The position numbers were made by a program, and so were the translations under genes. 32,783 nucleotides of DNA from a virus. Shown here in pieces: positions 23,013-32,783 of this stretch; the stretch's first letter is position 1, and each line of letters starts with the position of its first letter. Under the pieces are notes generated by a model. The model made no database searches. It was not told the origin of the DNA and was given only the letters and a program-made list of their open reading frames with translations. The stretch lies in the IMG/VR virus record IMGVR_UViG_3300042450_000134, positions 1 through 32,783 of that record, one strand, 5' to 3'.

Positions 23013-23176
23013 TATTTCTTAGCGGTTTTGGCACTGGCCTTAAACGCCGCGGCAGTAGGTGCGCCCTTGGCGCCTGGTGACCTCATGCGCTCTGGTGTCT
23101 TGCCAGCATCTTTTTGGCGCTCAATTCGCTCTTGCTTAGCGTGAATGTTGGCATACAGCCCTGGTTTATTCGCCAT
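23012..23176 (-). CDS. Small basic conserved-type phage protein (54 residues)
   Basis: 54 residues beginning MANKPGLYANIHAKQERIER and ending with an Ala/Lys-rich tail (FKASAKTAKK). The pattern KPGLY.NIHAKQ.RI....G..MR.PG.KGAPTA.AF is seen in many phages next to structural genes. The stop overlaps the next start (TAATG), and its start lies inside the end of the GroES-like gene (11-nt overlap). Highly basic and probably helical; function unknown. Confidence 0.75.
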   Translation of the reverse strand: MANKPGLYANIHAKQERIERQKDAGKTPERMRSPGAKGAPTAAAFKASAKTAKK

Positions 23177-23435
23177 CTTCATACTCCACTACTGCACAAA
23201 TGTCAGCTTCTTGAATGATTTGGTAATCCTGCCCATCTTCCGTTTGAGTCGGCCAGTTGAGATAGTCGCCGTTGCCGTACTTAATAAAGTCACCAACCGC
23301 CACATCCGTCACCAGTGGGCCTACAGCCACAATAGTGCCTTCGTTGAAAAATTCCTTGTTGTCAACGTAGATCAAGTCGCTTAATAGCCTCACCTGGGGT
23401 TTGACAACAACACGGTCACGCAGAGGTTTGAACAT
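23166..23435 (-). CDS. GroES-like co-chaperonin
   Basis: 89 residues. FKPLRDRVVVKP at residues 2-13 is the classic GroES opening. After the loop come FFNEGTIVAVGP, VAVGDFIKYGNGDY, and ADICAVVEYED at the end, reproducing the Cpn10 beta-barrel order. The mobile-loop region is short (RLLSDLIYVDNK) and lacks the usual GGI(V/L)L. GroES partners GroEL in folding. Phages such as T4 (gp31) encode versions that help coat folding, and this gene is among late genes. I prefer the internal ATG because it places the GroES motif at the N-terminus; a start 12 codons upstream is the alternative. Confidence 0.82.
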   Translation of the reverse strand: MFKPLRDRVVVKPQVRLLSDLIYVDNKEFFNEGTIVAVGPLVTDVAVGDFIKYGNGDYLNWPTQTEDGQDYQIIQEADICAVVEYEDGE

Positions 23436-23652
23436 TTTTACGCTCGTACTTTCGTTTGATTCGGGCAACAACTTGCGGTTTGATGGTGTCGGTCATTATG
23501 TCGTAAACAGGCACTTCTACAACTTTTCTGTTTTCAATTGCAGCAAATTGACCGCACCAATCAGTTCTTTGCTTGTTTTGCGTTTGTGGATATAACCGGC
23601 AGACGCCCATGATGGGCTGGTCTTGGAACATCCTGCAAGATCCACAATTCAT
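23416..23652 (-). CDS. Small Cys-rich putative zinc-binding protein
   Basis: 78 residues. CGSCRMF at 3-9, GVCRLYP near 16-22 and DWCGQF near 31-36 give four or five Cys arranged as a compact knuckle, followed by a basic C-terminal helix (ARIKRKYERKN). The order C..C..F...G.CR..P......WCG.(F/W) also occurs in the 70-residue protein at 25572-25784. A metal-bound fold is likely; the partner is unknown. It is linked to its neighbours by 4-nt and 20-nt overlaps. Confidence 0.75.
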   Translation of the reverse strand: MNCGSCRMFQDQPIMGVCRLYPQTQNKQRTDWCGQFAAIENRKVVEVPVYDIMTDTIKPQVVARIKRKYERKNVQTSA

Positions 23653-24250: not shown

Positions 24251-24655
24251 TTACAACGTCAATCCCTTGTTTGCTGCCCAAGCGTAGAGGAACTCAATGA
24301 ACTCACTGCTCTCGCCGGTGGTGAATTTGTGGCTTTGCAGGCCAAGCTGGACAATGCGCTCCCCATCCAGACTCGGACAGACCTTGCCAATCTTGCGGTT
24401 TGTGTCGTGCGCCCACTGGTCGATAAGCAATCTTTTCCAGTCATCTGCTGTCCAGGTGCTGCCGGCCGCGGCCATTTGCTTTGCTATTTTGTCAATCATG
24501 CTGTGAAACATTGCGTTCTGTTCCACGCTCCGCTTGCTCTGCTTGATCTCAATCGTCATCCGGTGGCCTGCCATCAGCATGGATTTCAGCATCGGCCAAA
24601 CAACGGTCATCATTTCTTTGTGGGCCTGGACAGGCTCCCAGCAAGTGACTTTCAT
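24251..24655 (-). CDS. ninB: NinB recombination protein
   Basis: 134 residues with the NinB/Orf pattern. RMTIEIKQSKRSVEQNAMFH is followed by IAKQMAAAGSTWTADDWKRL, then IDQWAHDTNRKIGKV and SSEFIEFLYAWAANKGLTL. In lambda, Orf (NinB) binds single-stranded DNA and can substitute for RecFOR in loading recombinases. It forms a recombination pair with the RusA gene just upstream (4-nt overlap). Last gene before the terminator-like hairpin. Confidence 0.88.
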   Translation of the reverse strand: MKVTCWEPVQAHKEMMTVVWPMLKSMLMAGHRMTIEIKQSKRSVEQNAMFHSMIDKIAKQMAAAGSTWTADDWKRLLIDQWAHDTNRKIGKVCPSLDGERIVQLGLQSHKFTTGESSEFIEFLYAWAANKGLTL

Positions 24656-25074
24656 TCTTTTTCCTTTATCAGTACATCCACGCCAGCAGTCTCGGCATAC
24701 ACCTTTGTTGTGTGAATTTCCACCACTTGCGAGTCATCGCCGTAAACAATGCTATTCATTGCATCCATAAAAGATTTCACAACATTGTCCAAGTCTGGCT
24801 TCTTGCAAGGCCATTCAGAGCCACTTAAACACGCCTCTGCTCGCTTTTTGGGGTATGACTTAGGCACTAGTAGCCTAACGTAAATAAAAGCCTCTAGCGC
24901 CGTTTTAAGCGGTTCACTGCTTCCCATTGCTTGTAGTGCGTAAAAGCGTACTTGGTCTTCGTAGCTGCTGGTCTTGGCGTCGGTGTAGGTTTGGATGAAG
25001 TTTCCTCGTCTGGCAAACCGCGGTCGTCCTTTGCCGTGCGGCTGGCCTGGCACTGTGAACATGATTTGCATCAT
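24652..25074 (-). CDS. rusA: RusA-like Holliday junction resolvase
   Basis: 140 residues. GQPHGKGRPRFARRG near the N-terminus and KKPDLDNVVKSFMDAMN, then VYGDDSQV, are the RusA signature. The paired acidic residues (PDLDN and GDDSQV) form the metal site. It cuts four-way junctions arising in recombination or replication. The ATG one nt after the upstream stop is preferred; an in-frame ATG 10 codons earlier (25104) would overlap that gene by 29 nt and cannot be excluded. Confidence 0.88.
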   Translation of the reverse strand: MMQIMFTVPGQPHGKGRPRFARRGNFIQTYTDAKTSSYEDQVRFYALQAMGSSEPLKTALEAFIYVRLLVPKSYPKKRAEACLSGSEWPCKKPDLDNVVKSFMDAMNSIVYGDDSQVVEIHTTKVYAETAGVDVLIKEKE

Positions 25075-25075
25075 T

Positions 25076-25309
25076 TCAGCGCCTACTCGCAGCTCGTTCT
25101 GCATCTTTTTCTGCGTGTTTTCCCCAATCAGTTTCAGTTTTTATTGGCCCCACAATTTTTACTTTTTGTCTTTCAGCCGCCCTTGTCAACATAAAAGCAC
25201 ATTCTTCATCATTAGTTGATTCGAAATCACGCTCACTAAATTTGACAGAAATTACTCCGCGCCTCCCGTCTTCATGTTCTGCTTCAGCTTTAATAATCCA
25301 ATAATCCAT
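25076..25309 (-). CDS. Small charged protein, unknown
   Basis: 77 residues. It starts with a beta-like segment (DYWIIKAEAEHEDGRRGVIS), followed by a short charged helix and a basic C-terminus (AEKDAERAASRR). AAGGA lies upstream of the ATG, and spacing to its neighbours is 1 nt on both sides. It sits in the leftward early operon between small genes and rusA. Not recognised. Confidence 0.68.
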   Translation of the reverse strand: MDYWIIKAEAEHEDGRRGVISVKFSERDFESTNDEECAFMLTRAAERQKVKIVGPIKTETDWGKHAEKDAERAASRR

Positions 25310-25526: not shown

Positions 25527-25575
25527 GGCCTGCTCTGGTTTCGTCTAGCAGCTTATGGGCAGAAAAATAGTTCAT
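25333..25575 (-). CDS. Small protein of the AHKLLDE...ALELTGD type, overlapping frame
   Basis: 80 residues from an ATG that overlaps the preceding Cys-rich gene by 4 nt. The first ~35 residues (NYFSAHKLLDETRAGHDYT, then ITSALELTGDID) match a recurring small phage protein pattern (AH.LLD..R.G......I..AL..TGD). The remainder (Arg/Gly-rich, WGRPGAERRETG) looks like a shadow of the overlapping gene. The real product may be this whole frame or only a short protein whose end has been replaced. Function unknown. Confidence 0.5.
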   Translation of the reverse strand: MNYFSAHKLLDETRAGHDYTEADITSALELTGDIDPDLFGNGLGWGRPGAERRETGLSAATVLRTGSGFSGIEINDHRQN

Positions 25576-25784
25576 GTTTTTGCCTTCCATTCCCCGCACC
25601 AGCCATCATCAGAAACTGCTGGTTGAGCCCATGCATAAAATTCGTGAGCCTGCAATTCGTTATCAGACATATCGCCTGGTTCAAATACAAAAACCGGGGG
25701 AACTTTTCTGCATCTTCCAACATCCTCATCCATGCCATTTTCGTGTTTATAAAATTTGCAATTTTCACAGTTTTCTTCAATCAT
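25572..25784 (-). CDS. Small Cys-rich putative zinc-binding protein, paralogue
   Basis: 70 residues. CENCKFYK near the start, then GRCRKVPP and DGWCGEWKAKT near the end, reproduce the layout C..C..(F/Y)...G.CR..P......WCG of the 78-residue protein at 23416-23652. The insert between the second and third parts is longer and acidic. Most likely a small zinc-binding fold. It sits in the early leftward operon and overlaps the next gene by 4 nt. Confidence 0.72.
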   Translation of the reverse strand: MIEENCENCKFYKHENGMDEDVGRCRKVPPVFVFEPGDMSDNELQAHEFYAWAQPAVSDDGWCGEWKAKT

Positions 25785-25837: not shown

Positions 25838-26083
25838 TCACCACTTTTCATCCGGTTGTTTGTACCAATCAGCCACAGGCTTACTCAGCGGCTGGCGATC
25901 TGCCCATTGCTTGTACGTCGATGTAGATTGATTGACAGGCTTTGCGCCCCATTGGTGATGGCTGCACTTCGGTGGCGATCCTTCCATGCGTACCGACCAC
26001 AGGTTGCCGCAGCCGTTGACACTGCATAGCAGATCACTCTTGCCTTCAGGAATGTCGTCTTTTTTAAAATTAGTTAGTGCCAT
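25838..26083 (-). CDS. Small zinc-finger-like protein next to the replication gene
   Basis: 81 residues. CSVNGCGNLWSVRMEGSPPK followed by CSHHQWG offers a C.4C...C..HH zinc-binding set, with C-terminal W/Q/P-rich residues (YKQPDEKW). Proteins of this type often accompany DUF1376 replication proteins in phages, as here (14-nt overlap). The ATG is chosen because AAGGA stands 7 nt before it; an in-frame ATG 9 codons earlier has no such signal. Function unknown; a replication accessory role is an inference. Confidence 0.68.
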   Translation of the reverse strand: MALTNFKKDDIPEGKSDLLCSVNGCGNLWSVRMEGSPPKCSHHQWGAKPVNQSTSTYKQWADRQPLSKPVADWYKQPDEKW

Positions 26084-26870
26084 GATATTTTCCTTCCACG
26101 ATTTTTGCAAAGTTGCTGGGTTTGAGGATCCATTCCAAATCAGCCGTAAACGCTCGTCCGTCTTTGCTGTTCACCTTGCCGACTAGGAACTTAGATTTTT
26201 GAATGTGTCCAAAGAAGTCATTGAACCAATCTAGCACCGCGCTTGCGCTGATCGGCTTGTCTTTGCCCAGCTCTGCCGCTACTTCCCTCCACCGTTGTCG
26301 CAGATAACCTTGCCTGGCAGCATTCCAGACTTCCACTCGGCGTAGTGTTGGCAGCTGCTGGTGATACAGGTCTATGACTGCTTGATGCTGACAGTCTGGC
26401 AACGCAGGGCCACCGTCAGGTGGACATATATCTGTATTCGTTGTTGATGATGGTGAAGATAAAGGTGAAGGTGAAGGTGAAGGTGATGTGCTATCCCCCA
26501 AGGATGCTTGGAGCATAGTCGGAGCATCTTTTTTGCCATATTTAGCAGCTGCACCAGCCAAACCACGCCTGCGGTTCACATCTTTGTTGTGGTTAGCCTT
26601 TGCCAACTCTTCGTCAACACGGTGGTGTGACCACTGCCCTGACTGCACTTCAAAGAATGCTTCAAGCATAGTCCGAGCATTGCTCCAAGCAGACGGAGAC
26701 AGTCTTGTGATCTGCGCTAAAACGCCATCGTTGTCTGGTGGTGGCCCGTTTTTCCAATAGTCCATCAGCAGCAACAGGTAGGCGCCGTGCTGTTCTGTGG
26801 TCAAACGGGAAGTTGCGCTCAGATAGTCCGCTACATAAAGCGGCATCCAAATATCGACTTTTGAACTCAT
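26070..26870 (-). CDS. DUF1376 (YdaU-type) replication protein
   Basis: 266 residues. Residues ~5-50 (DIWMPLYVADYLSATSRLTT, then HGAYLLLLMDYW) are the DUF1376 domain, a winged-helix-like module of phage replication initiators/organisers. A (Ser-Pro)n linker follows at ~120-135, then a C-terminal domain with helices (VEVWNAARQGYLRQRWREV). It probably recognises the origin and recruits the host helicase. It is the only replication-initiation candidate in the genome. The chosen ATG has an excellent SD (TGAGGT); one 14 codons upstream does not. Confidence 0.8.
   Translation of the reverse strand: MSSKVDIWMPLYVADYLSATSRLTTEQHGAYLLLLMDYWKNGPPPDNDGVLAQITRLSPSAWSNARTMLEAFFEVQSGQWSHHRVDEELAKANHNKDVNRRRGLAGAAAKYGKKDAPTMLQASLGDSTSPSPSPSPLSSPSSTTNTDICPPDGGPALPDCQHQAVIDLYHQQLPTLRRVEVWNAARQGYLRQRWREVAAELGKDKPISASAVLDWFNDFFGHIQKSKFLVGKVNSKDGRAFTADLEWILKPSNFAKIVEGKYHGTN
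26452..26487 (-). repeat. Hexanucleotide microsatellite in the replication gene
   Basis: Units of GGTGAA (TTCACC on the coding strand) repeat in tandem at 26464-26487, with one further copy at 26452. They encode an alternating Ser-Pro linker between the two domains. Six-base units keep the reading frame if slippage changes the copy number. Confidence 0.8.
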
Positions 26871-26968
26871 TGAGACCTCACATCGTTGGTCGTCATCACT
26901 GTTAAAGAACATCGGCAGGGAGGTGATGAGTCCCCTTTTCGTCCGCTAAGACTAGCCGTGCCCAAATT

Positions 26969-27124
26969 TTATCGTACAAACCACCCTGGCCGCAACAGTT
27001 TCAGCTGCCAAATCCGTGCCTCTGGGATCTCTGTCCACTGGCTGATAGCAGCATCACTGATCTCCAGCAATGCCGCCAGCTTGGCCTGGGAGCCAGCAAG
27101 AGTGATCGCCTGTTCTTTAGTCAT
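26969..27124 (-). CDS. Cro/YdaS-like small regulator
   Basis: 51 residues. The helix-turn-helix spans about 12-35: QAKLAALLE, then IS, then DAAISQWTE, with the Gly-Ser-Gln-Ala-Lys-Leu opening and IPEARIWQL following. This is the Cro/YdaS-type pattern (small HTH with a W in the recognition helix). It is the first gene of the leftward operon, and the adjacent region holds two palindromes that could be its operators. No SD is present; the ATG lies 5 nt after TACAAT, so the mRNA may be leaderless. The product is likely a transcriptional regulator that binds the nearby palindromes. Confidence 0.78.
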   Translation of the reverse strand: MTKEQAITLAGSQAKLAALLEISDAAISQWTEIPEARIWQLKLLRPGWFVR

Positions 27125-27129
27125 GCCGC

Positions 27130-27164
27130 ATTGTAAGCCAGCTTTACAGAGTTAGAGCTGTCAA
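27130..27164 (-). promoter_or_regulatory. Candidate leftward promoter of the regulator gene
   Basis: On the minus strand TACAAT (27130-27135) is preceded by an exact TTGACA (27159-27164). The spacing is 23 nt, too long for a normal sigma70 promoter. The TACAAT is the mirror image of the -10 of the rightward promoter and overlaps operator O1 in the same way. Activity probably depends on an activator or an unusual geometry. Confidence 0.45.
27134..27145. promoter_or_regulatory. Operator O1
   Basis: TAAGC-CA-GCTTT is a palindrome with one mismatch; read with wider arms, TGTAA and TTACA pair exactly around 7 nt. On the minus strand it reads AAAGCTGGCTTA and touches the leftward -10 (TACAAT). It shares 10 identical bases (AGCTGGCTTA) with O2 in inverted orientation; the O1 and O2 centres are 80 bp apart. 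Confidence 0.65.
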
Positions 27165-27176
27165 TACCTGACAAAA

Positions 27177-27192
27177 GTTAAGGGGGATTAAC
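27177..27192. promoter_or_regulatory. Palindrome between the divergent promoters
   Basis: GTTAA-6 nt-TTAAC is an exact inverted repeat between O1 and O2, next to the -35 of the rightward promoter. It does not share the AGCTGGCT core. It may bind another protein or be incidental. Confidence 0.35.
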
Positions 27193-27199
27193 AAAGTAG

Positions 27200-27229
27200 T
27201 TGACGACATGATTTAAGCTGGCTTATGAT
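27200..27229 (+). promoter_or_regulatory. Rightward early promoter
   Basis: TTGACG (27200-27205) and TATGAT (27224-27229) are separated by 18 nt; each matches consensus at 5 of 6 positions. Operator O2 fills the spacer and the first two bases of the -10. It is well placed to drive the whole plus-strand early operon; transcription would start near 27236. Confidence 0.7.
27214..27225. promoter_or_regulatory. Operator O2, perfect 12-bp palindrome
   Basis: TAAGC-TG-GCTTA is exactly palindromic and lies between -35 and -10 of the rightward early promoter, where binding would block RNA polymerase. It shares its core with O1 and O3. Confidence 0.68.
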
Positions 27230-27238
27230 GCAGTCAAT

Positions 27239-27267
27239 CCCCAACGCAATTCCGCAAGGGGTCTTTT
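27239..27267 (+). terminator. Weak attenuator-like hairpin in the early leader
   Basis: CCCC (27239-27242) pairs with GGGG (27258-27261), with a second GC pairing inside, followed by TCTTTT. It lies within the first ~30 nt expected of the rightward transcript. The stem is interrupted, so at most a partial attenuator. Confidence 0.3.
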
Positions 27268-27277
27268 AGAAAACATC

Positions 27278-27565
27278 ATGTCAAAAACATTAATCAGGAT
27301 CGGTCATTCAGCGTACAAGGGCATTAACGCTTACCGTATGTGTTTTAGCAAAGCACAGGCAATTCGCGTCTTGCGTCATCGGGGCTTGAAGCGTGATGAT
27401 GCGCGTGTTGTGGTGCAAAAAGCACTGACTCAAGGCGGCGCTTCTGCGTACTCGGGTTATGCCTGTATTGAAGTGGTCAACGAAGAGTGGGCGTTTCAGG
27501 CGGGGCATTTTTACAGCAGCTACTCTGAACTCAAGGCCAGGTGGTCTAGCGCTCCCGAGCATTAA
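27278..27565 (+). CDS. First early protein, unknown (95 residues)
   Basis: 95 residues, basic, with an N-terminal strand-rich part (TLIRIGHSAYKGINAYRM), a helical middle (KAQAIRVLRHRGLKRDDARV) and an aromatic C-terminus (NEEWAFQAGHFYSSYSELKA). It is the first gene behind the rightward promoter, so probably expressed immediately after infection, a position often held by host-takeover proteins. AGGGG lies in the leader but rather far from the ATG. Not recognised. Confidence 0.7.
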   Translation: MSKTLIRIGHSAYKGINAYRMCFSKAQAIRVLRHRGLKRDDARVVVQKALTQGGASAYSGYACIEVVNEEWAFQAGHFYSSYSELKARWSSAPEH

Positions 27566-27580
27566 TTCTCAAAACACAAC

Positions 27581-27594
27581 GGGGCTTCGGCCCC
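27581..27594 (+). promoter_or_regulatory. C(UUCG)G hairpin between early genes
   Basis: GGGGC-TTCG-GCCCC is a perfect stem with the extra-stable C(UUCG)G tetraloop, 12 nt before the next ATG, and with no U-tract after it. It could stabilise the mRNA end, weakly attenuate or insulate the next ribosome site. Confidence 0.55.
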
Positions 27595-27606
27595 TGAAAG
27601 AACACC

Positions 27607-27939
27607 ATGAAAACTCCCATCTGGACAACTGGCTACAAGCCAACCAAAGACGACTTAAAGGGTCTGTATAACCACAGCTTTGAGACTGCTGGCGGTCTTG
27701 TGCTGGACTGCTACTTAGCTTTTGAAGCAGAAGAACGTGCCACCTACGATCATCCTGGCAGTGCAGCAGCCGTTGAGTTGATCTGGGCTTTGGTTGAAGG
27801 TGTAGATATCAGCGAGGTCATCGGGGATCTGGCTGCAACCATTGAAGAAGAAGCGCTTGAGGACATGGCGGTCCAAGCTGAACATGACCAGTACGACCGT
27901 GGCCAAGAGCGCTACGAAAACCGGAGGGATGCCGAATGA
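27607..27939 (+). CDS. Acidic early protein, unknown (110 residues)
   Basis: 110 residues, strongly acidic in the middle (AFEAEERATYDHPGS, then GDLAATIEEEALEDMAVQAE) and highly helical, with a charged C-terminus (YDRGQERYENRRDAE). AAAGA stands before the ATG, and the stop overlaps the next start by 4 nt. Acidic small early proteins of this sort can mimic DNA or bind host proteins, but nothing specific supports that here. Not recognised. Confidence 0.7.
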   Translation: MKTPIWTTGYKPTKDDLKGLYNHSFETAGGLVLDCYLAFEAEERATYDHPGSAAAVELIWALVEGVDISEVIGDLAATIEEEALEDMAVQAEHDQYDRGQERYENRRDAE

Positions 27940-28205
27940 ATCACGCAATCAATTGGACGCTGGCAGCTTTGGCGGCACTGGTGCTGTCCACGGCATACCT
28001 GCTGGACGGCCCTAGCGACCACCAGGCTGCAATTGATGCGGCGGCTGATGCCAAGGCTACGCAAACAGAACAAAAGGCGCAGGCGAGGTTTGAGAAGGCT
28101 GCACAACAGATGTGCGGAGAGAACTCGGGGTGGACGCAGCTGGAAAACGGCAGTGTCCAATGTTTTACTAAACGGGGTCACAAGACCCAGAAAGTTCAGC
28201 TATGA
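27936..28205 (+). CDS. Membrane-anchored or secreted small protein
   Basis: 89 residues. Residues 5-24 form one hydrophobic segment (INWTLAALAALVLSTAYLL) preceded by few charges, probably a signal anchor. An Ala/Gln/Lys-rich helix follows, then a C-terminal portion with two Cys (MCGENSGWTQ and SVQCFTKRGH) that could form a periplasmic disulphide. GGAGG lies upstream of the ATG. It is coupled to both neighbours by ATGA overlaps. Not recognised. Confidence 0.7.
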   Translation: MNHAINWTLAALAALVLSTAYLLDGPSDHQAAIDAAADAKATQTEQKAQARFEKAAQQMCGENSGWTQLENGSVQCFTKRGHKTQKVQL

Positions 28206-28396
28206 GCATAGATCAGATTCTGGCAGGCGTCACTGACGTTGCCAACCGTGCATACGAAGGTTCACCGCCCGAGGACAGGCTAGCGTTTGAGGTTGGGATG
28301 CTGCATAGCAAGCTGAGGGAAATGTCGTACCTGCTGGCTAACGCCAATGAGCATATCAAAGAGTTGGAAATCGAACTTGCTTACGAAAGGAAATAA
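28202..28396 (+). CDS. Small helical protein (64 residues)
   Basis: 64 residues, helical, with a Glu/Leu-rich C-terminal half (LHSKLREMSYLLANANEHIK, then ELEIELAYERK) that may be a coiled coil. The ATG overlaps the previous stop by 4 nt, and the next gene starts 2 nt after its stop. No domain recognised. Confidence 0.68.
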   Translation: MSIDQILAGVTDVANRAYEGSPPEDRLAFEVGMLHSKLREMSYLLANANEHIKELEIELAYERK

Positions 28397-28398
28397 AA

Positions 28399-28587
28399 AT
28401 GACAACCATCATGCTTCACCGAATCACAACGCTCGAATTGACCGAGACAAATGCATTGACCACCAGTTCAGGCAGTTTGTTCTGGAGGCGCAAGCTGATC
28501 GTCACTGATGACAAAGGCAACAGGACTGAGATTAACTTGTTTGCCGACAGCGTAGAGCCAATGAAAATTAAGGAGATAACTGTATGA
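28399..28587 (+). CDS. Small beta-strand protein before ERF (62 residues)
   Basis: 62 residues, mostly beta strands (MLHRITTLELTETNALTT, then RRKLIVTDDKGNRTEINL, then MKIKEITV). AAAGGA precedes the ATG by about 7 nt, and the stop overlaps the ERF start by 4 nt. Similar tiny proteins stand before recombination genes in other phages. Function unknown. Confidence 0.68.
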   Translation: MTTIMLHRITTLELTETNALTTSSGSLFWRRKLIVTDDKGNRTEINLFADSVEPMKIKEITV

Positions 28588-29132
28588 AACAAATAGCCAG
28601 CGCTTTGGTCAAAGCACAGAAAGCCTTTGGGCCTGCTTTAAAGACCGCTACGAACCCGCATTTTAAGAGTCGGTATGCTGACCTTGCCGCTTGCGTTGAA
28701 GCGGTCATAGGCGGTTTAAACGATAACGGCATAGCACTCATCCAGCGCAACAGCTTGGACGATGCTGGCGTGACCGTGGAAACCGTGTTTGTGCATGAGT
28801 CTGGCGAAATGCTGGAATGCGGAAAGCTGCACGTACCCGCTGCCAAACACGATCCGCAAGGGTATGGATCTGCTCTGACGTATGCCAGGCGGTACAGTTT
28901 GATGGCGGCTTGCGGCATAGCACCTGAAGATGATGATGGCAACGCTGGCAGCAAACCAGCACCCAAGGTGACAGACGCCACCATCAAAGCACTACTGGCA
29001 GACATTGCTGATTGCTTTACGCATGAACAACTCAAAGAAGCCTTTTTCAAGGGAATCAAAACAGTGGGTGATGATGCCGACGCCCGTGATCAAATCACCA
29101 AGGCCAAAGATGCAAGGAAGGCAACACTATGA
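28584..29132 (+). CDS. ERF-family single-strand annealing protein
   Basis: 182 residues. NPHFKSRYADLAACVEAV near residues 25-45, LNDNGIALIQRN, and DPQGYGSALTYARRYSLMAA with GIAPEDDDGNA are the characteristic ERF blocks. ERF proteins anneal complementary single strands during phage recombination and genome circularisation, which a headful-packaged, terminally redundant genome needs. Typical C-terminal helical region. AAGGAG gives a strong ribosome site. It is coupled to the exonuclease gene (4-nt overlap), its usual partner. Confidence 0.9.
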   Translation: MKQIASALVKAQKAFGPALKTATNPHFKSRYADLAACVEAVIGGLNDNGIALIQRNSLDDAGVTVETVFVHESGEMLECGKLHVPAAKHDPQGYGSALTYARRYSLMAACGIAPEDDDGNAGSKPAPKVTDATIKALLADIADCFTHEQLKEAFFKGIKTVGDDADARDQITKAKDARKATL

Positions 29133-29758
29133 GCATCCTATTTCGCGCCAGCGCATTGAGCGCAATCATGACGGATGGCAAAGGCAAAGATGAATTGTCG
29201 GTTGGGGCTAAGACCTACGTTACCAAGTTGGCCAAAGAGTTCATTTACGGCTACGACGAACGGGTTAGCAGCAAGTACATGGACAAGGGCATCCAGGTTG
29301 AAGACGAATCCATTGATTTGTACAACGCCGTACATTTGACCAGCCACAGCAAAAACACCGAGCGCCGAAACAACGACTGGATTACCGGCGAGGCTGACAT
29401 TGTTGCTGATGACCGAATCATTGATATCAAATCAAGCTGGTGCCTAACCACCTTCCCCGTCCTGGCTGACCAGGGCAGAGATACTGGCTACGAATGGCAG
29501 CTACGCGCTTATATGTGGCTGTGGGACAAGCCACGCGCAGACATTGCATATTGCCTGGTCAGCACTCCCGAGGCTTTGATTGGTTGGGAGAATAAAGCGC
29601 TTCACCAGGTTGACCACATCAATCGGGAATTGCGCGTGACCATCGTTCCTTATGTCCGAGACTCGGTAATGGAAGACAAGATCAAAACCAAAGTCGAAGC
29701 GGCACGGGTCTATTACGACCAGGTTATCCAAGAAATCAGCAACCAACACACTTACTAA
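29129..29758 (+). CDS. PD-(D/E)XK exonuclease, recombination partner of ERF
   Basis: 209 residues. GEAD (Asp90), then DIKSSW with Asp99 and Lys101, form the PD-(D/E)XK catalytic core. EWQLRAYMW with Gln124 and Tyr128 is the downstream QxxxY motif of lambda-exo/YqaJ-like nucleases. It would resect duplex ends to give single strands for ERF. The position immediately after ERF with ATGA overlap matches the usual exonuclease/annealase pair. Confidence 0.82.
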   Translation: MSILFRASALSAIMTDGKGKDELSVGAKTYVTKLAKEFIYGYDERVSSKYMDKGIQVEDESIDLYNAVHLTSHSKNTERRNNDWITGEADIVADDRIIDIKSSWCLTTFPVLADQGRDTGYEWQLRAYMWLWDKPRADIAYCLVSTPEALIGWENKALHQVDHINRELRVTIVPYVRDSVMEDKIKTKVEAARVYYDQVIQEISNQHTY

Positions 29759-29761
29759 ATC

Positions 29762-30001
29762 ATGGCAATCACAAAAGAAATCAGCTGCGTAGTCGGCACA
29801 TACACAAATGCGCAGGGCGCAACCAAGAACCGCTATCAGCGAATTGGCTCAATCATCCAGACGCAGCGAGGCGAGATGTTGAAATTGGACGTTATCCCGC
29901 TGCGTGAAGGCGGTTGGGATGGCTGGGCATATCTGAATGACCCAAAGCCGAAAGAGTACCAGGGCTTGCCCAAAGATGATGACGGCGATATTGCATTTTG
30001 A
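29762..30001 (+). CDS. Small SSB-like protein with an acidic tip
   Basis: 79 residues. Strands ISCVVGTYTNAQGATKNRYQ, then IGSIIQTQRGEMLKLDVIP, then WDGWAYLND suggest a compact beta barrel. The C-terminus DDDGDIAF resembles the acidic tail of bacterial SSB (consensus DDDIPF), which recruits SSB partners. It follows ERF and the exonuclease directly. An SSB-like or SSB-mimic role is inferred; the length is short for a canonical SSB. No strong SD; only 3 nt separate it from the upstream stop. Confidence 0.65.
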   Translation: MAITKEISCVVGTYTNAQGATKNRYQRIGSIIQTQRGEMLKLDVIPLREGGWDGWAYLNDPKPKEYQGLPKDDDGDIAF

Positions 30002-30013
30002 GGAGAAGACAGC

Positions 30014-30295
30014 ATGAGTGGCGGACACTTTAACTACAAGCAACACACGTTGCTGGACATGGCAGATGACATAGGTAGCGAGATACTGACCAACGACAGC
30101 AAGGAAAAAAATGAGTGGGGCAACAACATTGGCAGTCATTACAGCCCTGAAACTATTGCCGAGTTTGAGAAGGCGGTGAAGGTACTGAAGCTGGCCTATG
30201 TTTACGCACAGCGTATTGATTGGCTGCTGAGTGGTGATGACGGCGAGGATAGCTTTCACAAACGTTTACAGGCACAACTTGGAGAATTGAAATGA
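30014..30295 (+). CDS. SGGHFNYKQ-type small phage protein
   Basis: 93 residues beginning MSGGHFNYKQHTLLDMADDI, a recurring opening of small phage proteins, followed by helices (FEKAVKVLKLAYVYAQRIDW) and an acidic/basic tail. GGAG precedes the ATG, and the stop overlaps the next start. Function unknown in all relatives I can recall. Confidence 0.72.
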   Translation: MSGGHFNYKQHTLLDMADDIGSEILTNDSKEKNEWGNNIGSHYSPETIAEFEKAVKVLKLAYVYAQRIDWLLSGDDGEDSFHKRLQAQLGELK

Positions 30296-30546
30296 CACAA
30301 CCAGAAGCCTTGCGGTTGGCTGACTGTCTGGAAACAGAAAAAGTTGGCGCAATACTAGGCGACTCAGCCGCCGCCGAACTGCGCCGGTTGCATGCAGTGA
30401 ATCAGGAACTGCTGGCGGCGTTGAAGATGGCCGAGCCTCTGCTTCAAGCAATGCTAAACAACATGGTTAGATATCTTCCGCAGTACGAAAAAATGCCAGC
30501 ACTAGATCAAGTCCGTGCTGCAATAGCTAAAGGAGAAGCCAAATGA
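30292..30546 (+). CDS. Small Leu-rich phage protein (84 residues)
   Basis: 84 residues, helical and Leu/Ala-rich. ALRLADCLE near the start, AAAELRRLHAVNQELLAALK in the middle, and a tail with ALDQVRAAIAKGEAK. The pattern (A..LA..L..........AA.ELRRL...N.ELL.AL) is common in small phage proteins of unknown role. GGAG stands upstream; it overlaps both neighbours by 4 nt. Confidence 0.72.
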   Translation: MTQPEALRLADCLETEKVGAILGDSAAAELRRLHAVNQELLAALKMAEPLLQAMLNNMVRYLPQYEKMPALDQVRAAIAKGEAK

Positions 30547-30674
30547 ACGACGAAATCAAAGACGATGAGATCGAAGACCTCTACATGAACCCGTGGCTGG
30601 AGTACGGCATCGTAATACTCATCCTCGCCATCTCAACAGCGGCGTTTGCGTTCTTGCTGGGGTATGTGATATGA
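30543..30674 (+). CDS. Tiny single-TM protein (43 residues)
   Basis: 43 residues. The first 17 are strongly acidic (MNDEIKDDEIEDLY), then PWLEYGIVILILAISTAAFA with FLLGYVI forms one membrane span to the end. AAAGGAG lies before the ATG, and both ends overlap neighbours in ATGA fashion. An acidic head with a C-terminal membrane span could be an inhibitor or anchor peptide; function unknown. Confidence 0.66.
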   Translation: MNDEIKDDEIEDLYMNPWLEYGIVILILAISTAAFAFLLGYVI

Positions 30675-30871
30675 AACTACCTGTAACCGACACAATTCTT
30701 CCAGCATACGGGATACATGGCTACACCGTCGAACAGATGCTGGCGTGGGGCAAAGCCTGCGCCGAATCAGAGCGTGAGGCTTGCGCTGTAATCTGCGAGC
30801 AGGAAGAAGAACTCAGAGACCATACGCCGTTTGACGCTGCTTTAAGAATCAGAGCAAGGAGTAAATCATGA
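30671..30871 (+). CDS. EREACA...RAR small protein A (66 residues)
   Basis: 66 residues. GYTVEQMLAWGKACAESERE, then ACAVICEQEEEL, and a C-terminus AALRIRARSKS make up the EREACA..C.......A..IRAR pattern shared with the next gene. The ATG overlapping the upstream stop is preferred; a GTG 26 codons earlier lies inside the 43-codon gene and is rejected. The last codons carry the SD (AAGGAG) of the next gene. Function unknown. Confidence 0.7.
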   Translation: MKLPVTDTILPAYGIHGYTVEQMLAWGKACAESEREACAVICEQEEELRDHTPFDAALRIRARSKS

Positions 30872-31131
30872 AAGAAAAAACTAAAGAAATTGCAGACTCT
30901 GTTGGCGCTGTATACCCCGTGCTCTTTATGGGGCGGCATGATGGCGTACTGTTTACAGAGACTGAGTTGGAGACGTTTGTTGCGTTAGTTGCCAAGCATG
31001 AGCGTGAGGAATGCGCGAAGTTGTGCGAAACGCCAATAGACGAAATACAGATTACAGACGATTGCGCGGAAACCGTTTATATGGGCGCAACTGAATGCGC
31101 CGACGCCATCAGAGCAAGGGGAAACACATGA
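30868..31131 (+). CDS. EREECA...RAR small protein B (87 residues)
   Basis: 87 residues. The second half, KHEREECAKLCETPIDE ending ECADAIRARGNT, repeats the EREACA...IRAR pattern of the preceding protein. The identical DNA string ATCAGAGCAAGG ends both genes (30848-30859 and 31108-31119) and provides each successor's SD. The N-terminal half (YPVLFMGRHDGVLFTETELE) differs. Probably an ancient duplication; role unknown. Confidence 0.72.
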   Translation: MKEKTKEIADSVGAVYPVLFMGRHDGVLFTETELETFVALVAKHEREECAKLCETPIDEIQITDDCAETVYMGATECADAIRARGNT

Positions 31132-31577
31132 CAGGATTTGATTCAAAGCGCCAAGCAGCGCAGGTGCGGGTGGTGGTTGATGATGCACAAGGCTACATCG
31201 CAGACTACGAAGCGGCTCTGAAGATTGCATACGAGATCGGTTTTGAAAACGGCAAGAAAGCACAGCGCAAGCCGTTTTCTGCTGTTTCAATCCACGCTAC
31301 ACAGACGGCGTGGAAAATGGGCTACGAAGCTGCAAAAGCGGAGATGCAGCCAGAGCAGGAGCCATGCGTAGGAAAAGACCCTCGATGCCCTTGTCAAGAT
31401 GGTCATGCGTGTCATTACAAAGACTGTGGTGGGGGTACGAAGGCACGGCCAGTAGCACAGCGCACATGGGTAGGGCTGACGGATGAGGATTGGGACAAGG
31501 TTGGGGATATGCCCGACACGTTTGACCAAGGCGTAGCGTGGGCAGCGGCAAGATTGAAAGAAAAAAATGGTTACTGA
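31128..31577 (+). CDS. Protein with a Cys/His cluster (149 residues)
   Basis: 149 residues. Two similar helical segments (AALKIAYEIGFENGKKAQRK and QTAWKMGYEAAKAEMQPEQE) precede a cluster CVGKDPRCPCQDGHACHYKD with an additional Cys, suggesting zinc binding. The C-terminal portion (WVGLTDEDWDKVGDMPDTFD, then VAWAAARLKEKNGY) resembles small phage proteins with EDW....... GV.WA...LKEKN endings. AAGGGG is well spaced upstream. The preferred ATG overlaps the preceding stop; an earlier in-frame start would overlap by 37 nt. Function unknown. Confidence 0.7.
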   Translation: MTGFDSKRQAAQVRVVVDDAQGYIADYEAALKIAYEIGFENGKKAQRKPFSAVSIHATQTAWKMGYEAAKAEMQPEQEPCVGKDPRCPCQDGHACHYKDCGGGTKARPVAQRTWVGLTDEDWDKVGDMPDTFDQGVAWAAARLKEKNGY

Positions 31578-31746
31578 AGACGATGAATTTAGGCGCATCG
31601 AGCGCGAGATCAAATGGCGAAAAGAAAAAGCCGACGCCGACTTAATGGTTGTCTACTCATTGAGGCTGACCAAAAGCCAGCGCGTCAAGCTGCTGCAACT
31701 CGGTGGGCCAACATGGATTAGGAATCAAATTGACAGACATTCCTAA
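31567..31746 (+). CDS. Small basic helical protein (59 residues)
   Basis: 59 residues. An acidic start (MVTEDDEFRR) leads to a basic helix (IEREIKWRKEKADADLMVVY) and SQRVKLLQLGGPTWIRNQID, an R..KL..LGG..W.R..I pattern frequent in small proteins of proteobacterial phages. It overlaps the previous gene by 11 nt and the next by 17 nt, so translation is likely coupled. Small basic regulators are a possibility; no function assigned. Confidence 0.65.
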   Translation: MVTEDDEFRRIEREIKWRKEKADADLMVVYSLRLTKSQRVKLLQLGGPTWIRNQIDRHS

Positions 31747-31906
31747 CTTCGCAGCCTGGGAGCGTCAGACACTGGACAAATTCGCCCTGGACGCCTACCT
31801 ACGACTACAGGCCCAGCAGGAGGCGCTTGAGCAGCTAAGGGGTGACCTCAAGGATGCAATGAGCCTGCTACGCAAACAAACGTGTGCTGCTGCGGTCAAT
31901 GATTAG
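31730..31906 (+). CDS. Small helical protein, last gene of the early operon (58 residues)
   Basis: 58 residues from a TTG with AGGA about 6 nt before it. The preferred start gives LTDIPNFAAWERQTLDKFAL followed by AYLRLQAQQEALEQLRGDLK, a long helix, probably coiled coil. A GTG nine codons upstream is possible but lies deeper in the previous gene. The 3' end overlaps the convergent endolysin gene by 39 nt. Function unknown. Confidence 0.62.
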   Translation: MTDIPNFAAWERQTLDKFALDAYLRLQAQQEALEQLRGDLKDAMSLLRKQTCAAAVND

Positions 31907-32656: not shown

Positions 32657-32783
32657 TTTAATTTCCTAAATTAAAACTCAGATTAGCATGGCGAGGATAC
32701 TGCACCACTCGCTCACCCTCTGGGCATTTGTACTTAATCGTCGCCAGCAGAGTAGCTGCACCCGGCGCAATCTTCTCTTTTTG
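32657..32783. repeat. Terminal direct repeat, right copy
   Basis: Identical to positions 1-127. It should be counted once in the circular genome (32,656 bp). See the left copy for the interpretation. Confidence 0.95.
32658..32783 (-). CDS. Second copy of the C-terminal end of the 151-residue lysis-region gene (overlap artefact)
   Basis: The last 41 codons and stop of the gene at 2-457 recur here because of the terminal overlap. It is the same gene seen twice, not a second truncated gene. On the circle the complete gene ends 2 nt before the holin start. Confidence 0.9.
   Translation of the reverse strand, partial: QKEKIAPGAATLLATIKYKCPEGERVVQYPRHANLSFNLGN

Follow-up and report, generated by a model that had tools for sequence, protein, structure and literature searches.

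A Putative Cro-Controlled Early Region with Operator-Like Sites on Two Divergent Promoters in an Uncultured Phage

Results

Two gene blocks and the junction between them

The window analysed here is the whole of the virus record IMGVR_UViG_3300042450_000134 in IMG/VR, 32,783 nucleotides in length. It carries a perfect 127-nt direct terminal repeat (1-127 and 32657-32783), and because of this repeat we probably have a whole genome here, circular or circularly permuted and about 32.66 kb in size. The minus-strand genes lie, with few exceptions, in a single block that extends leftward from 27124 and, the genome taken as a circle, reaches 31868, and the plus-strand genes form another, from 27278 to 31906; the 153-bp intergenic region is the divergent junction of the only two gene blocks in the genome. 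An earlier note, made from the sequence of the window, had proposed that a switch in this region controls the two halves of the genome. Two blocks are indeed present, but "halves" is a loose word for about 28 kb on the minus strand and about 4.6 kb on the plus strand. In the minus block, cro is followed by a DUF1376/O-like gene, then by RusA and NinB, and later by the genes for terminase, portal and capsid. Many of the genes lack an assigned function. The ones that matter for the argument are the following:

24251-25104, minus strand: NinB and RusA, more distal in the block that cro heads (profile matches)
26070-26912, minus strand: replication initiation protein (DUF1376/O-like), next after cro (profile matches)
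26969-27124, minus strand: cro, 51-residue P22-type Cro protein (Pfam P22_Cro, E 2.5e-11)
27278-27565, plus strand: first rightward gene, 95 aa, no assigned function
28584-29758, plus strand: Erf-like annealing protein and exonuclease, in the rightward block

The relatives are metagenomic contigs. Where a record contains both Erf and cro, the two are on divergent sides in 10 or 11 cases, the single exception being the L040 record, and DUF1376 adjoins cro in 9 of the 13 records with a P22_Cro match. Two other genes of the minus strand deserve mention in their own right. One, at 23166-23471, encodes a GroES-like co-chaperonin (PHROG, E 2.8e-8) in this 33-kb phage. The other, at 25572-25784, encodes a small Cys-containing protein for which the high-potential iron-sulfur protein model scores just over its cut-off; a similarly named gene is annotated in the Manatee Spring phage MW202544, and the product may be another metal-binding protein and not a true HiPIP.

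Inverted repeat and promoters in the intergenic region

The elements found in and next to the 153-bp region are, from left to right:

27130-27135, minus strand: TACAAT, a -10-like hexamer for cro, 5 nt ahead of the cro ATG
27131-27148, no strand: candidate operator O1, 18-mer TTGTAAGCCAGCTTTACA, part of the inverted repeat, over the leftward -10
27159-27164, minus strand: TTGACA, the only one there, at a spacing of 23 bp from TACAAT and not a standard -35
27176-27193, no strand: probable third operator AGTTAAGGGGGATTAACA, resembling the P22 site AGTTAAGTCATCTTAAAT
27200-27229, plus strand: rightward early promoter TTGACG-18-TATGAT, with an 18-bp spacer
27211-27228, no strand: candidate operator O2, 18-mer ATTTAAGCTGGCTTATGA, within the spacer of the rightward promoter and over its -10
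27239-27267, plus strand: hairpin (27239-27261), then UCUUUU, close to the 5' end of the rightward RNA, fold -7.5 kcal/mol

The two nearly identical 14-mers on opposite strands that the earlier note had described are found at 27216-27229 on the plus strand (AGCTGGCTTATGAT) and at 27143-27130 on the minus strand (AGCTGGCTTACAAT). They extend to a 17-nt inverted repeat, GCATTGTAAGCCAGCTT (27128-27144) and AAGCTGGCTTATGATGC (27215-27231), in which 15 of 17 positions are complementary and each copy, taken alone, is close to palindromic (AAGC-TG-GCTT). A likeness of this length is rare in shuffled sequence: the best 17-mer pair among 60 shuffles of the 153-bp region reaches 13/17, and when the O2 side is shuffled, 15/17 against the O1 side is attained once in 5000 trials. 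The centres of the copies, at 27139.5 and 27219.5, lie 80 bp apart, as had been said, and each copy overlaps a -10-like hexamer, TATGAT to the right and TACAAT to the left, on opposite strands. The orientation had been given as head to head; since the -10 ends face outward, the 14-mers are in fact placed back to back.

The claim of two opposite promoters holds better on one side than on the other. The rightward promoter is a good one (10/12), but for the leftward TACAAT there is no recognisable -35 at a distance of 16-18 bp. In the relatives L123, L207 and L218 a TTGACA is located near 17 bp from a TAATAT hexamer, and the clade of the window thus appears, from the sequences, to have a longer spacer between -35 and -10 ahead of cro. 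Because a -35 at normal distance is missing, the cro promoter may be weak or dependent on an activator.

A Cro protein of the P22 family

The 51-residue protein scores 43.6 bits against the Pfam profile P22_Cro (PF14549), where the cut-off is 30.2, and its gene is the only one in the window to match this profile. By phmmer, its nearest relative of solved structure is P22 Cro (1rzs, 7e-5). The AlphaFold model (pLDDT 94) is all-helical with five helices, and its top Foldseek matches are the Cro proteins of P22, Xfaso 1 and N15 with TM values of 0.76-0.80, at E values of only 0.03-0.4 as the chain is very short. By sequence profile and predicted fold alike, the protein belongs to the P22 Cro family, which bears out the earlier description of an adjacent Cro-like gene. 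The YdaS toxin family (PF15943) gives 29.9 bits, just under its cut-off of 30 and less than P22_Cro, and no partner gene is recognised; a toxin-antitoxin reading was rejected on these grounds.

Our scans gave 183 loci with a Cro relative, which reduce to 113 distinct upstream regions and these to 76 clusters. In 65 of the 76 clusters the best -10-like hexamer of cro ends 5-7 nt ahead of the start codon, where shuffles predict about 12. At the usual distances of initiation, an mRNA would begin on the A of the ATG or directly beside it, and the cro mRNA is probably leaderless. Such an mRNA has been demonstrated by RACE for cro of the telomere phage PY54 (PMC4488713).

Three sites of the P22 operator kind

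The starting pattern in the search for sites was ATTTAAG-N4-CTTAAAT, which we take to be the P22 operator and which was afterwards located in the P22 record. In that record, the best sites by cro and in the other operator cluster are ATTTAAGTGTTCTTTAAT, AGTTAAGTCATCTTAAAT, ATTTAAGACTTCTTAATT, TTTGAAGAAAACTTAAAT and ACTAAAGATTCCTTTAGT. O2 is the joint best match to the pattern in the window (11/14), with a core, TAAGCTGGCTTA, that agrees with TAAG-N4-CTTA at 8 of 8 positions; for O1 the corresponding values are 9/14 and 7/8. Between them lies one more such palindrome, GTTAAGGGGGATTAAC (27177-27192), in an 18-mer that matches the pattern at 10 of 14 positions. The earlier note had reckoned with two operators; the pair is real, but there are most likely three, the central palindrome having been overlooked.

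When the P22-derived core TAAG-N4-CTTA is searched for with a threshold of at least 7/8, i.e., with one mismatch at most, there are seven matches in the whole genome, where 9.4 are expected, and three of the seven, namely O1, O2 and the centre, fall in the 153-bp intergenic region. Three core matches in this region are seen in 2 of 20,000 shuffles. Adjacent sites are separated by 35 and 45 bp, and no side-by-side array of the lambda kind is formed. The centre GTTAATYYCCCTTAAC or a similar sequence is present in nine clusters, that of the window included, and only beside operators of the TAAG type. This restriction is consistent with the centre being a third Cro site, which on the sequences it probably is. 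The 18-bp sites of the TAAG-N4-CTTA type are candidates for binding by the 51-residue Cro.

Sites and Cro vary together among relatives

In the relatives that belong to the clade of the window, O1 and O2 are both retained, nearly unchanged and paired as in the window. In other lineages different sequences stand at the same two places, and these are again paired: TGTCCA-N6-TGGACA occurs twice in L050, GTTAAT..GTTAAC twice in L211, and GTCTA..GCTATAC twice in L029. Over the 76 clusters, the O1 region of a genome resembles its own O2 more than the O2 of other genomes, with z about 8 and none of 20,000 permutations reaching the real value. Fixing the sites relative to the -10 reduces the effect to z 3.5, because the position of the site shifts between lineages, as in L183 and L199, where O1 extends to the start codon of cro. 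Taken one by one, 19 of the 76 clusters are significant at the 0.05 level, against an expectation of 3.8.

The similarity of O2 between clusters also tracks the similarity of the Cro recognition helix when the rest of the protein is allowed for (partial r 0.16, p 0.0005); for O1 the corresponding relation is not significant in the 76-cluster comparison (p 0.08). The earlier note had made its proposal depend on conservation of the palindromes in close relatives. The proposal withstands this check: paired sites persist across the 76 types with a sequence that changes with Cro, which suggests that protein and sites change together while the layout is kept.

A further palindrome and a leader hairpin

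In 29 of the 76 clusters, where 0.95 are expected, the centre is instead occupied by TAGGKA-N4-CCCTA or a close form of it. This 15-bp palindrome lies upstream of the TTGACA of an early promoter, for example ahead of cro in L183 and L030 (pattern hits L225-L342), and it does not occur in the window. As it is common to clusters with 17 different recognition helices, it was ruled out as a Cro site. The exact 17-mer TAGGTACTTTCCCTAAT is present in at least 120 viral stretches, and in only 22 of the 119 inspected is a Cro-like gene close by, which points to a wider element of these phages. Judged from these sequences, at least one factor other than Cro probably acts in the early region of the relatives.

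The fold of the leader hairpin is not significant in the window alone. Its anchor is found in 61 of the 76 clusters and the hairpin is conserved in about 60, with a third pair that is CG in 41, GC in 12, TA in 4, TG in 2 and AT in 1, i.e., with compensatory change. In many relatives hairpin and UCUUUU are followed by AGGAG, which is like a ribosome-binding site. Protection of the mRNA or attenuation are possible roles. An intrinsic terminator is also possible but not preferred, as the hairpin begins a few nucleotides past the predicted start of the transcript and leads into AGGAG in many relatives. A search of Rfam matched no family. A second GC-rich hairpin, GGGGCTTCGGCCCC (27577-27606, plus strand), has a similar placement just ahead of the next start codon, at 27607.

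Lysogeny genes

The family models find neither a tyrosine integrase (PF00589) nor an S24 repressor/peptidase domain in 14 related records of 31-38 kb, and HTH_3 gives no match over its cut-off. There is no gene between the promoters, and a repressor of the cI/c2 type was not found. In a scan of 84,980 species genomes one relative only was detected, in a metagenome-assembled bin; in viral contigs there are at least 565 stretches with relatives.

Of what makes up a lambdoid immunity region, the locus has a pair of diverging early promoters that both carry repressor-type sites, although the left one is without its -35. A cI/c2-type repressor gene, an integrase or prophage copies were not found, and tandem operators, two or three per promoter, are absent, there being one site per promoter and one in the centre. 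Since repressor and lysogeny genes were sought and not found, the locus falls short of a full lambdoid immunity region.

Discussion

We propose, with a probability of about three in four, that this junction controls the early genes of a lytic phage. It would be an early region of the P22/lambda type that lacks cI and where Cro, acting by itself, turns down the two early units, its own included. The proposal builds on the sites and their pattern, the protein family, conservation, co-variation and gene order, and from these we infer binding, repression, timing and the leaderless start. Of the two outward early promoters, one would express cro, the replication and recombination-junction genes and then the structural genes, and the other would express Erf, the exonuclease and further early genes. 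The P22-type Cro, translated from a probably leaderless mRNA, would build up early in infection and bind the 18-bp O1 and O2 on both promoters and probably the third site between them. Bound Cro would then lower transcription of both early units, including its own, and the outcome would be negative feedback and timing, with no choice between lysis and lysogeny. The "compact bidirectional switch" of the earlier note is right in so far as the sites overlap the -10 hexamers of two opposite promoters, one directed at each gene block; as no lysogeny genes were found, shut-off of early genes describes it better than a two-state switch.

The closest known system is immC of P22, where Erf lies to one side and cro, the replication and the nin genes lie to the other, as in the window. 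The Cro proteins are of the same family, with recognition helices SDAAISQW and SDAAVSQW, and the operators are of the TAAG-N4-CTTA kind. In contrast to P22, no c2 repressor separates the promoters of the window, which has a single site at each promoter and one central site, all inside 153 bp, and a cro start 5 nt past the -10, where P22 cro has a leader with a GGAG motif. Lambda Cro shuts down both early promoters, but OR/OL of lambda differs by another fold class of Cro, by tandem triple operators and by the presence of cI. The immB region of PY54 has a small Cro, which has been investigated alongside the all-alpha P22/N15 type, and the leaderless cro mRNA (PMC4488713); it differs in that PY54 has CI and is temperate, and in that its Cro has one binding site and no presumed role in repressing its own synthesis. 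Among uncultured phages, the Manatee Spring phage MW202520 has an antitoxin-like small gene divergent from erf and paired sites, TTTAGATGGCTTAA and GTTAAGATAGCTTTA; here the small gene is annotated only as an antitoxin, and erf is the first rightward gene. For the cultured phages, no Cro is recognisable by eye in the divergent region of MEP301, and none is annotated in P19250A.

The same arrangement could be read in other ways. O1 and O2 might be targets of a host regulator or of some other phage protein while Cro acts elsewhere, and the palindrome TAGGKA-N4-CCCTA, which in many relatives is conserved between the promoters whatever the type of Cro, lends this some plausibility. That palindrome is missing in the window, however, where O1 and O2 fit the P22 operator pattern, and across relatives O2 varies with the recognition helix of Cro, which makes this reading unlikely. 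It is a little less probable again that the phage is temperate and that an unrecognised repressor, encoded elsewhere, uses the same sites as in an ordinary lambdoid switch. In its layout, Cro family and operator pattern the region agrees with P22, which is temperate, and a repressor could be among the many genes of the window that are functionally unassigned; against it stand the 14 records of 31-38 kb with neither integrase nor S24 domain, the lack of HTH_3 matches over the cut-off, and one relative in the genome scan versus 565 stretches in viral contigs. The likeness of O1, O2 and the centre could, finally, be due to chance, as the 14-mer match consists in part of -10 sequence, which lengthens it, and short AT-rich regions readily yield palindromes. 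The shuffles and the cross-genome comparison, in which similarity of the -10 is kept constant, make this very improbable.

If Cro does turn down both early units in this phage, the locus would show what role Cro has where no CI opposes it. For the wider group the evidence is, in our judgement, evenly balanced on whether a large set of freshwater phages has reduced the lambdoid immunity region to a compact lytic timer. In such phages cI would be gone, operator-promoter units would stand about 80 bp apart, and a Cro of some 50 residues, made from a leaderless mRNA, would repress both. Operators and Cro helix would have diversified into dozens of matched pairs, and in many members the Cro-independent TAGGKA-N4-CCCTA would bring a further factor to the same promoters. 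Rules of helix-DNA recognition have been proposed from lambdoid phages (Hall et al. 2005, as cited in PMC4997575), and the 76 upstream types would provide a large natural collection, in which Cro helices are matched with operators, on which to test such rules. Prediction of operators and promoters would also become possible for an abundant group of uncultured freshwater phages.
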